From Rhizomicrobium sp. (GTDB lineage: Bacteria > Pseudomonadota > Alphaproteobacteria > Micropepsales > Micropepsaceae), in the NCBI GenBank assembly GCA_037200385.1, contig JBBCGL010000001.1, forward strand, positions 2,108,001 to 2,172,000: a stretch of DNA of 64,000 nucleotides, in the 5' to 3' direction. Within the stretch, counting starts at the first letter, position 1. Each line of letters opens with the position of its first letter. Made by a program: the position numbers and the translations under genes. This document shows, piece after piece, positions 46,288 to 52,721 of this stretch. The notes beneath the pieces are model-generated. The model saw only the letters and a list, made by a program, of their open reading frames with translations, searched no databases and was not told the DNA's origin.

Positions 46288-47088
46288 TCAGGCCAGGAGA
46301 TTGAGCGGACCGTTGCCGGCGCCGAAGCCGGGGGCCGTGGCGATGGCGCGCTGCACGAAGGCATGGGCGCGGGCCACCGCGTCGGCGAGCGCCAGCCCCT
46401 CGCCCAGGCCGCAGGCGATGGCGGAGGACAGCGCGCAGCCCGTGCCGTGGGTGTGGCGCGTGTCGCGGCGCGGCGCGGCGAAGCTTTGCGGCGCGGCGTC
46501 GTGCGTGAAGAGAAGATCGCTGAGCGTGGCGCCGGCGGCATGACCGCCCTTCAGCAGCACGGCGGCGGGGCCCAGCGACAGCAGATGCCGCCCCGCACGC
46601 TGCAGGTCGTCCGGCGTCCGCAGGGCGAAACCGCACAGACGCTCGGCTTCCGGGATGTTGGGCGTGACGAGCGCGGCGCGCGGGAAGAGATCGGTCTTGA
46701 GGACTGCGACGACCGCATCGTCGGCGAACACGGCGCCGCGCGTGGCCGTCAGCACGGGATCGACGACGAGCGGGATGCCGTGCGCGTGCCGCGCGAGCGC
46801 GGCGGCGACGGCGCGCGCGACCGCCGCCGTGCCCAGCATGCCGATCTTGATCGCATCGGCGCCGATGTCGGTGAGGCAGCGCACGATCTGCTCGGCGACG
46901 ACCTCGGGCGGAACGGGATGGATCGCGCCGATGCCGGTGGTGTCCTGCGCGGTGATGGCGGTGATCGCCGTCATCGCATAGGCGCCCAAGGCCGACGCGG
47001 TCTTGATGTCCGCCTGGATGCCTGCGCCGCCGGAGGAGTCCGAGCCGGCGATGCTGAGGAAGCGGATGGGTTTCGCGGTCGTTTGAAT
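46288..47088 (-). CDS. thiD: Hydroxymethylpyrimidine/phosphomethylpyrimidine kinase, apparent ATT start
   Basis: A 266-residue thiamine-pathway kinase that phosphorylates HMP and HMP-phosphate. The substrate loop SIAGSDSSGGAGIQADIKT and the later THGTGCALSSA (anion hole) are typical. The conserved N-terminus is in frame but has no ATG, GTG or TTG before it. An in-frame TGA lies eight codons upstream of the best candidate, an ATT at 47086-47088 preceded by GGGGAAAG. The resulting length equals that of E. coli ThiD. A palindromic repeat sits 20 bases upstream and may have displaced the original start. Starting at the first internal TTG would delete the substrate loop. Confidence 0.85.
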   Translation of the reverse strand: MQTTAKPIRFLSIAGSDSSGGAGIQADIKTASALGAYAMTAITAITAQDTTGIGAIHPVPPEVVAEQIVRCLTDIGADAIKIGMLGTAAVARAVAAALARHAHGIPLVVDPVLTATRGAVFADDAVVAVLKTDLFPRAALVTPNIPEAERLCGFALRTPDDLQRAGRHLLSLGPAAVLLKGGHAAGATLSDLLFTHDAAPQSFAAPRRDTRHTHGTGCALSSAIACGLGEGLALADAVARAHAFVQRAIATAPGFGAGNGPLNLLA

Positions 47089-47169: not shown

Positions 47170-48516
47170 CTAGGCCGCCACTTCCTGGATCGCGCTCACG
47201 ATGTCGTTCACCACAGAACGGACCAGCGTCTCGTCGTCGCCTTCGGCCATCACGCGGATCACCGGCTCGGTGCCCGACTTGCGCACCAGCAGGCGGCCGG
47301 AGCCGTTGAGACGCGCCTCGCCGTCCTTGATGCATTCGGCGACGCGGGCATTGGCGAGCGGCGAGCCCCTCTGGAAGCGCACGCTTTCGAGGACCTGCGG
47401 CATCGCGTCGAACAGATGCGCCGCCTGGCTGGCCGGCTTGCCCTCGGCCGCGAGCACCGCGAGGACCTGGAGCGCGGCGATCAGGCCGTCGCCGGTCGGC
47501 GAGATGTCGCTGAGCACGATATGGCCGGACTGCTCGCCGCCGACATTGTAGCCGCCCTTGGTCATCTGCTCGATGACGTAACGGTCGCCGACCGCGGCGC
47601 GCGCGAGGTTGAGGCCGAGCGATTTCAGGTAGCGGTCGAGCCCGGCATTCGACATCACCGTGCCGACCACGCCGCCGCCCTTGAGCTTGCCACGCGCCGA
47701 CCACGACTTGCCGATCAGCGCGAGCACCTGGTCGCCGTCGATGACGCGGCCGCGTTCGTCCGACATCACGACGCGGTCGGCATCGCCGTCCAGCGCGATA
47801 CCGAAATTGGCGCGCATCTCGCGCACCTTGGCCGACATCGCCTCGGTCGAGGTCGAGCCGCAGCCCGAATTGATGTTGAAGCCGTCGGGCGCCACGCCGA
47901 TCGGGATGATCTCGGCGCCGAGCTCCCACAGCACTTCGGGCGCGACCTTGTAGGCGGCGCCGTTGGCGCAGTCGATCACGATGCGCAGCCCCTCGAGCGT
48001 GAGGTCGGAGGGGAAGGTGCGCTTGGCGAATTCGATGTAGCGCGCCTGGGCGTCGTCGATGCGCTTGGCGCGGCCGAGCTTGGGCGAGGTGGCAAGGCCG
48101 GTGTCGAAACCGTTGTCCATCAGCGCCTCGATCGCGGCCTCATGCTCGTCGGAGAGCTTGCGGCCGTCGGGACCGAAGAACTTGATGCCGTTGTCCTGGT
48201 ACTGATTGTGCGAGGCGGTGATCATCACCCCCATGTCGGCGCGCAGGCTGCGCGTCAGCATCGCGACGGCCGGCGTCGGCAGCGGACCGAACTGGAAGAC
48301 GTCCATGCCCACCGAGGTGAAGCCCGCGACCAGCGCGGATTCGATCATGTAGCCGGAGAGCCGCGTGTCCTTGCCGATCACCACGCGATGGCGGTGGTCG
48401 CCGCGGGTGAAGATGCGGCCCGCGGCCATGCCGGCGCGCATGGCGACGGCTGCGGTCATCGCACCGGAATTGGCGCGCCCGCGAATGCCGTCCGTGCCGA
48501 AATATTTCCGGCTCAT
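47170..48516 (-). CDS. glmM: Phosphoglucosamine mutase
   Basis: A 448-residue enzyme converting glucosamine-6-P to glucosamine-1-P for UDP-GlcNAc synthesis. The N-terminal [10 protein letters not shown], the phosphoserine loop [13 protein letters not shown], the metal loop ALDGDADRV and the substrate loop GGEQSGHIV are all present. The ATG at 48516 follows GGGGAG; a TTG two codons earlier is possible. It directly follows folP, the same order as the sul2-glmM remnant known on resistance elements. Confidence 0.97.
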
Positions 48517-48602
48517 GCTCAAAGCTCCCCATGGGTCAGGATGGTTTTACCAGCATTCTGGCAGCCCGGAGCGCAACAATTATTAACAGATGCGACAAGG
48601 GG

Positions 48603-49400
48603 TTAAGAGCCGCCCTCGGCCAGGGCTTTTGCCAGCAAAAGCGCGTCTTTCAGCGGGCCTGGGGCGTGCGTGCGGATGTAATCGGCACCCTGGCGGACAG
48701 CGTAAAGTTCCGCGGCGAGGCTGATGGGGCCGGCGTCCGCCGCCTCGCGGCCGGCCAGACGGCGCAGGAAGGATTTGCGCGAGACCGAGACCAGGACCGG
48801 CAGGCCGTAGCGCGTCTTGAGCTCCGGCAGGCGGCGCAGCACGGTCAGCGAGGTCTGTGGATCGGTGCCGAGGAAGAATCCCATGCCGGGGTCGAGGATG
48901 AGCCGGGCGCGCGCGATGCCGGCGGCTTCGAGCGCGGCGAGACGGGCGTCGAAGAACGCAAAGAGCTGATCCATGATCTGCGCCGGGGCAATGTCGATCC
49001 GCGTGGCACCGCCATTTGTTTGGACCGAATGCATCACGATCAGCTTCGCCGCCGAAGCGGCGAGCGCAGGATAGAGCGAGGCGTCTGGGAAACCCTGGAT
49101 GTCGTTCAAATAGGCGACGCCTTGTGCGAGGGCCCAGCGCTGAACCTCGGGCGCGTGGCTGTCGATGGAGAGCGGAATGCCGGCGAGCGCGGGCAGCACC
49201 GATTCCAGGCGCGCGATCTCGGTCTGCGGCGGGACCGACTTGGCGTCGGGATTGGACGACGCGGCACCGATGTCGAGCAGATCGGCGCCGTCGGCGGCGA
49301 GCGCCCTGCCCTGCGCGACCGCTGCAGCGGAATCCAGATAGCGGCCGCCATCGGAGAACGAATCTTCGGTGATGTTGAGAATGCCGAGAATCGTGGTCAT
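48603..49400 (-). CDS. folP: Dihydropteroate synthase, Sul1/Sul2-like type
   Basis: A 265-residue folate enzyme joining pABA to the pterin pyrophosphate. Several stretches match the sulfonamide-insensitive Sul2 and Sul1 proteins as I recall them better than classical FolP: DSFSDGGRYL (13-22), IGAASSNPDA (44-53), AYLNDIQGFPDA (96-107), LILDPGMGFFLG (167-178), SVSRKSFLR (205-213) and DYIRTHAPGPL (240-250). Classical enzymes carry GGESTRPG and DPGFGFGK at two of these places. It sits in its chromosomal context, followed by glmM. Whether it is sulfonamide-insensitive is not shown by sequence alone. Confidence 0.93.
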   Translation of the reverse strand: MTTILGILNITEDSFSDGGRYLDSAAAVAQGRALAADGADLLDIGAASSNPDAKSVPPQTEIARLESVLPALAGIPLSIDSHAPEVQRWALAQGVAYLNDIQGFPDASLYPALAASAAKLIVMHSVQTNGGATRIDIAPAQIMDQLFAFFDARLAALEAAGIARARLILDPGMGFFLGTDPQTSLTVLRRLPELKTRYGLPVLVSVSRKSFLRRLAGREAADAGPISLAAELYAVRQGADYIRTHAPGPLKDALLLAKALAEGGS

Positions 49401-49510: not shown

Positions 49511-51427
<1,917 letters not shown>

Positions 51428-51575: not shown

Positions 51576-52721
51576 CTAATTGCGCCGCTTTTGCGCTCCA
51601 TGGGGCGCGGGCGATGGGTCGCTTCGGCCCGATTCCCGCACAATCGCCAGGGTTCCGGCGCCAAAAGCTCCTCTTCCGGCCGGCGCCATGAAGAGCCGGC
51701 AGCCATGCAGCGTGGCACCTCCGCCCAATTTTCCATCCTTGAGGCGGTCGAACAGACGCTCCAGCCGCTCGAAACGCGGGCGGTAGGCCTGACCCGAAAC
51801 CAGCATCAGGAGCTGGGCCAGGGCGCGCAGGCCGACTTCGCGGGGAGCGGCGGTCAGGGCGGCGATATCGACATGCAGCGCCGCGTCGCGGAGACGCACC
51901 GCGCGGCTGAGGACGGCGGCGGTCACGGATTCCAGCGCCTCGCGGGCGCGCGCCAGATGGCCCGCGGCGGCGGCGATGCGGGCGCGGCTGAGGCCGGCGT
52001 CTTCGAGCGCGGGCAGCAGCTTGCGGACGCGGACGCGGGCGAAGCGATCCTCGCCATTCATCGGATCTTCGATCCAGGCGTGCTTCCGGACGGCCAGATG
52101 GTCGCGCACGGCGCCGCGTTCGAGCCCAAGCAGCGGACGCACCACAGCGAGCTCGGCGAAGCCGGGCACCGGCCAAGCGGCAACGGGACGCATGGCGGAC
52201 AGCCCGTCGAGGCCGCTGCCGCGCATCAGGCGAAGCAGGAAGGTCTCGGCCTGGTCGTCGCCGGTGTGGCCCACATAGAGCGCGGAAAGCTTCCTGCCGC
52301 GGAGCCATTCGCCCATCAGGCGATAGCGCGCCTCGCGGGCGGCAGCCTCGATCCCCGATGCGGGAGGCGGGCCGCGCCAGCGCAGCACTTTCGACTCGAG
52401 ACCAGCCTGCTTCGCCCAGCGCGCAACGGCACGCGCGGTGGCGGCCGAGCCTTGCTGCAGACCGTGATCGACCGTGACGACCGCAGGCGGCGCCTGGCGC
52501 GCCGCCTTGGCCCAGCCCGCGAGCAGGTGCATCAATGCGATGGAATCGCCGCCGCCGGAGACCGCAACGGCAGCCGGCCAAGGCGCGCCGCCTGCCAGCA
52601 GCGCATCCATGGCGGCGGCGAAGCGCGCCTCAAGAGGTTCCGCGGCAGGTTTTGCGCGCGTCGGCGCCTTGTTCGAGGACCGCTTTGGCGGCCTTGGGAT
52701 ATTTGGCCGGGAGCGCGGCAA
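51576..52721 (-). CDS. tilS: tRNA(Ile)-lysidine synthetase
   Basis: An enzyme of up to 381 residues that modifies C34 of tRNA(Ile) to lysidine. The PP-loop is AVAVSGGGDSIALMHLL, followed by VDHGLQQGS and YVGHTGDDQAETFLLRLMRG. The start is uncertain. The TTG at 52721 overlaps cpoB by 92 bases, but the next ATG (52610) would begin inside the domain's first helix. Positioned between cpoB and ftsH as in relatives. Confidence 0.92.
   Translation of the reverse strand: MPRSRPNIPRPPKRSSNKAPTRAKPAAEPLEARFAAAMDALLAGGAPWPAAVAVSGGGDSIALMHLLAGWAKAARQAPPAVVTVDHGLQQGSAATARAVARWAKQAGLESKVLRWRGPPPASGIEAAAREARYRLMGEWLRGRKLSALYVGHTGDDQAETFLLRLMRGSGLDGLSAMRPVAAWPVPGFAELAVVRPLLGLERGAVRDHLAVRKHAWIEDPMNGEDRFARVRVRKLLPALEDAGLSRARIAAAAGHLARAREALESVTAAVLSRAVRLRDAALHVDIAALTAAPREVGLRALAQLLMLVSGQAYRPRFERLERLFDRLKDGKLGGGATLHGCRLFMAPAGRGAFGAGTLAIVRESGRSDPSPAPHGAQKRRN

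Follow-up and report, generated by a model that had tools for sequence, protein, structure and literature searches.

The window analysed here, a 64,000-nucleotide stretch from a Rhizomicrobium sp. (Micropepsaceae), carries a folP gene whose product, a dihydropteroate synthase (DHPS), resembles the mobile sulfonamide-resistance enzyme Sul2. The locus raises two questions: whether it belongs to or lies near the lineage that donated sul2, as the first-pass annotation had suggested, and whether its enzyme is itself insensitive to sulfonamides. The reading that we consider very likely is that the gene encodes a housekeeping DHPS of the Sul-type (FolP*) branch, probably sulfonamide-insensitive, and is a cousin of sul2 rather than its donor.

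The minus-strand gene order in the window was tilS-like, ftsH, folP, glmM and thiD-like (Table 1). The range originally assigned to the gene (48516..49400) does contain folP, but its lower end is an in-frame ATG of glmM, so that it comprises folP plus the spacer. A single folP was found in the 5.0-Mb chromosome, which argues for a housekeeping role. Two Pterin_bind matches were obtained genome-wide, the other lying in a 1513-aa frame that we take to be metH. The adjoining glmM, which had been read as a link to sul2, is indeed present; since ftsH, folP and glmM are arranged alike in E. coli K-12, it represents ordinary synteny and is not diagnostic of such a link. By eye, the Parvibaculum loci L110 and L112 also have a gene similar to the thiD-like one after glmM. 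In the FtsH tree, the window's ftsH and that of genome G034 grouped with families f91 and f70 (support 98/99), apart from six other members of the window's family, and this discordance suggests that the ftsH adjoining folP was replaced.

Table 1. Features at and around the folP locus (positions within the 64,000-nucleotide window)
Feature	Position	Strand	Remarks
folP, Sul-type dihydropteroate synthase, 265 aa	48603..49400	-	ATG to TAA
folP codons 169-178, LDPGMGFFLG, alpha-6 segment with two-residue insertion	48867..48896	-	Phe175 aligns with Sul2 Phe179
glmM, phosphoglucosamine mutase, intact, 450 codons	47170..48522	-	start TTG 48522 or ATG 48516
ftsH, ATP-dependent protease, upstream of folP	49511..51427	-	
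thiD-like phosphomethylpyrimidine kinase	46288..46989	-	
tilS-like PP-loop protein, upstream of ftsH	51576..52721	-	

All six stretches first quoted as shared with Sul2 and Sul1 were found in the predicted protein, starting at residues 13, 47, 97, 169, 205 and 243. Amino acid identity was 62.1% to Sul2, 52.8% to Sul1 and 50.0% to Sul3; the best solved structure was Sul2 (7s2j, E 2.8e-92), with Sul2, Sul1 and Sul3 structures ranking first. NCBIfam profile scores were also obtained (Sul2, 332.5 bits; Sul1, 276.6; Sul3, 271.3; generic DHPS, 239.9; Sul4, 92.5). Because the first of these falls far under the 575 bits of the curated Sul2 threshold (NF000295), the protein is regarded as Sul-type but not as Sul2. 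It passed the DHPS family cut-offs of both TIGR01496 (162.6 bits) and PF00809 (203.3 vs 25.5 bits). The two-residue Sul insertion (R171-N211 region, E. coli numbering) is present as GMGFFLG, and the alpha-6 Phe (178 in Sul1, 179 in Sul2, 177 in Sul3) is kept as Phe175. We take R247 and H249 to be substrate-binding sites of the Sul structures. Conservation in the window's protein extends to N9, S14, F15, S49, N99, D170, M173, F175, F176, L177, K209, S210, R243 and H245, and covers the pterin-, phosphate- and pABA-binding residues of the Sul structures (sites from PMC10328974). Position 129 in loop 3 is unusual, being Asn where 31 of the 39 Phe-bearing family members have Arg, and this might change the handling of pABA.

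The expectation that the protein would group with Sul enzymes was borne out phylogenetically. In a 78-row tree built without the motif columns, 56 Sul-type rows, including the window and Sul1-3, formed a single clade to the exclusion of classical FolP (support 100/100, stem 0.84), the bootstrap of this tree being not wholly settled. Every one of the 25 Sul-type genomes in the class sample had the insertion, which was absent from the 34 classical rows picked for comparison. A different insertion occurs at the same place in FolP of family f131 (GWSAFLS and GWGRFVS, in L216 and L324), and L216 sits on a long branch beside the Sul-type clade; these proteins could possibly represent an early or independent form.

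Like any DHPS, the window's enzyme would join pABA to the pterin. Its two extra alpha-6 residues would position Phe175 (Sul2 Phe179) so that room is left for pABA while sulfonamides clash. In the published mechanism of Sul enzymes, the Phe side chain fills the place of the sulfonamide group and the backbone still binds pABA; changing this Phe to Gly gave better sulfamethoxazole binding and left complemented E. coli susceptible, and the Gly-Phe-Phe motif was found in hundreds of deposited DHPS (PMC10328974). The FolP* of Rhodobiaceae/Parvibaculum, as described in PMC6335563, resembles the window's protein in being a chromosomal DHPS with the Sul insertion and an adjoining glmM, and folP* of P. 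lavamentivorans raised the sulfamethoxazole MIC of E. coli from 8 to >512 mg/L. It belongs to another family (f9, taken here as Parvibaculaceae, with g249 as Parvibaculum; the window's family is f1), and the window's FolP is 56-66% identical to that of L110, L112 and L116. A forest-soil enzyme, SEW5_DHPS01, can be likened to the window's by description: it is non-mobile, conferred resistance in a functional screen and was closest to alphaproteobacterial DHPS (58-61%), so that natural insensitivity has a precedent in such bacteria (PMC6416219). SEW5_DHPS01, unlike the window, is a metagenomic clone, and its description suggests a possible kinship. Classical FolP of E. coli K-12 is, like the window's, a pterin-binding DHPS within the same gene order, yet it lacks the insertion (GFGF--GK) and falls outside the Sul-type clade.

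From these comparisons we infer that the window's DHPS is probably active and drug-insensitive. That it is instead an ordinary sulfonamide-sensitive enzyme, Sul-like in its conserved blocks only, seems unlikely. The window's protein does also pass the generic DHPS model (239.9 vs 162.6 bits), some relatives carry Q, L, M, A or Y in place of the Phe, and both activity and resistance are here predicted from sequence comparison; against this, the Sul-type clade holds at 100/100 when the motif columns are removed, insertion and Phe occur together in the window's protein, and the other FolP of the class, among the matches listed, reach at most 43% identity to Sul2, a clear gap to the ≥50% of the Sul-type proteins. 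Recent acquisition of a mobile sul-like gene by the chromosome is scarcely credible. The GC3 of folP (0.812) does lie under that of glmM (0.92) and ftsH (0.928), and the neighbouring ftsH is phylogenetically discordant, but a comparable value is seen in the nearby tilS-like gene (0.796). Moreover, the only folP found in the genome sits in the ftsH-folP-glmM place, a folP of this kind is held by 56 of 60 family genomes, counting the window's own, and same-genus relatives are 74-75% identical.

Membership of the locus in the sul2 donor lineage is also highly improbable, if marginally less so. The window's protein is 62% identical to Sul2 and shares its GMGFFLG with Phe and its conserved substrate residues; the folP-glmM order is common to both, and the window's glmM is 78.0% identical at the nucleotide level to the sul2 glmM remnant over 236 bp. 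It differs from mobile Sul2 in being chromosomal and single-copy with an intact glmM, where the Sul2 context has a truncated one, and far closer relatives exist. The closest found, in a Parvibaculum sp. MAG (L110), is 90.4% identical to Sul2 in amino acids, and its locus is collinear with the sul2 element over 1134 bp at 84.8% nucleotide identity (gene 83.1%, spacer 83.2%, and the 249-bp glmM remnant 91.6%). Sul2 and L110 were paired with support of 100/99 in the 78-row tree, nested in a supported set of 13 rows made up of Parvibaculum, its sister genus g283 and L114. The window ranked only 32nd of 78 distinct loci in closeness to sul2 and 35th of 79 to the glmM remnant (86 distinct loci were searched, with L114 counted among them). 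L110 ranked first, so that the sul2 glmM fragment does not align best to the window's glmM. Thus, sul2 came from Parvibaculum and not from the window's lineage.

Within Parvibaculaceae, 37 of 40 genomes had a match, with identity to Sul2 graded from 91, 81 and 75% down to 58%. The L110 glmM is intact, the genes around the L110 locus correspond by eye to those in L112, and no second folP was found in the L110 genome, which is 92% complete. Rhodobiaceae and Leptospiraceae had earlier been named as chromosomal sources of sul genes (Sanchez-Osuna 2019, PMC6335563); the same report gives the identity between P. lavamentivorans and sul2 as 63.33% and describes a P. aeruginosa contig bearing another mobilised folP* with a partial glmM, at 72.76% nucleotide identity to P. 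lavamentivorans. With 83.1% for the gene alone in the MAG against the reported 63.3%, the source of sul2 is narrowed from a family to one Parvibaculum cluster. A limited search of later literature, seen in part, brought up no report recognised as naming a closer donor.

The origins of sul1 and sul3 were less clear-cut. Sul1 and Sul2 are 53.5% identical, compared with 90.4% for Sul2 and L110, which makes recent descent of sul1 from sul2 unlikely. The published reading that sul1 derived from sul2 is disfavoured by this identity together with the test of Sul1 and Sul2 as a single clade (p-AU 0.040, which is not strong). Placement of Sul1 within the Parvibaculum clade was not rejected (p 0.075). 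Sul1 paired with the Parvibaculaceae genus of L117 (98/91), but was joined by a long branch (0.98), and its best identity in 40 genomes of the order of Parvibaculaceae (37 with a match) was 55%. Sul3, for which an origin in Leptospiraceae has been published, paired weakly with family f126 (84/77).

Another sul2-like gene was encountered in two MAGs carrying different labels (an unclassified bacterium and Kiritimatiellae), which have in common a 1.73-kb segment at 99.7% identity (L114:3621-5349 and L115:2891-4618). The segment contains a gene whose product is 77% identical to Sul2, followed by approximately the first 132 codons of glmM, and each genome also has a classical FolP. No plasmid records matched the gene at ≥90%, and the whole segment returned one record with a partial match at ≥99% that was not returned when three parts were searched apart. 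In L115, direct repeats of 126-236 nt (starts at 1623, 2898 and 4545) lie between unrelated genes and on both sides of the sul2-like gene; no plasmid match was found for them. A promoter-like stretch, TTGACA-N17-TAGGAT, was noted in these repeats by eye, and searching L114 and L115 against Rfam returned a single sub-threshold match, which lies outside the repeats. The gene has the appearance of a sul gene, as yet unnamed, that was mobilised independently.

Sul-type FolP proved to be spread across Alphaproteobacteria. A Sul2 query of the class sample matched 293 of 385 genomes, 25 of them at 50-67% identity, and these 25 fall into nine families (f1, f9, f18, f39, f54, f121, f123, f126 and f142). 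None of the 385 was marked as belonging to the window's order outside its family. In the family itself, best matches in the genomes other than the window's were 55-75% identical to the window. In a phylum sample of 398 genomes, three passed E 1e-60, namely that of the window and two others, with a Sul2 (100%) and a Sul1 (99.6%), respectively. An IMG/VR scan yielded one relative, a contig of the viral collection (L325) with Sul1 (99.3% aa) at its end.

On a quick RpoB tree (49 of 55 genomes matched; 46 rows, with E. coli), the Sul-type trait required at least 5 changes, and host monophyly without f39 was borderline (p 0.053). FtsH rejected host monophyly (p 0.00095), but the window's ftsH is itself discordant. 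In family f39, one genus (L133) has a Sul-type folP inverted between ftsH and glmM, where its sister genus has a classical folP. Because these sister genera differ in the same place, lateral replacement of folP is likely to have occurred at least once.

The key Phe is not fixed in the window's own family. Among 55 readable FolP, the position of Sul2-179 is occupied by F in 39, M in 6, L in 5, Q in 2, Y in 2 and A in 1. The Phe is thus replaced in 16 of 55, as against 0 of 53 Sul-type rows of other families, and since the trait is not fixed, its presence in a relative is no proof for the window, which itself keeps the Phe. Tyr, a mild change, accounts for 2 of the 16 replacements; the published change to susceptibility is Phe-to-Gly (PMC10328974), and the natural replacements in the family are L, M, Q, Y and A. 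The two-residue insertion was kept in all 55. These counts include three genes that have a stop codon within, or at the end of, the matched region (L011, L188 and L198); G036, whose folP is split over contigs, was left out of the family set, and L011 of one folP alignment. By parsimony, at least 9 changes between F and non-F were required on the best tree, in which 18 of 57 inner branches were weakly supported, and seven independent contrasts rest on supported branches. Covariation of the loop-3 Arg129 with Phe was suggestive, going one way in 3-5 of the 7 supported pairs and the other way in 0-2; it was chosen post hoc from 290 tests and is not significant. Two Leu-bearing members, L179 and L184, read MFSVE at a site that is MH in the remaining 53 of 55, with loss of the His beside loop 3.

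Taken jointly, these data allow a tentative reading to which we give slightly less than even chances: the insertion would have been fixed for a reason other than sulfonamides, insensitivity would be its side effect, and the family would supply naturally occurring alleles that grade from insensitive to sensitive. Mobilisation of sul genes out of Parvibaculaceae would also have happened on more than one occasion, giving sul2, perhaps sul1, and the unnamed sul2-like gene that two MAGs of different label carry together with a glmM stub. Sulfonamides are synthetic drugs. According to our survey, several alphaproteobacterial families have a Sul-type enzyme as their native DHPS, and since alleles occur in nature both with the key Phe and lacking it, the question why an insensitive DHPS predated the synthetic sulfonamides becomes testable.
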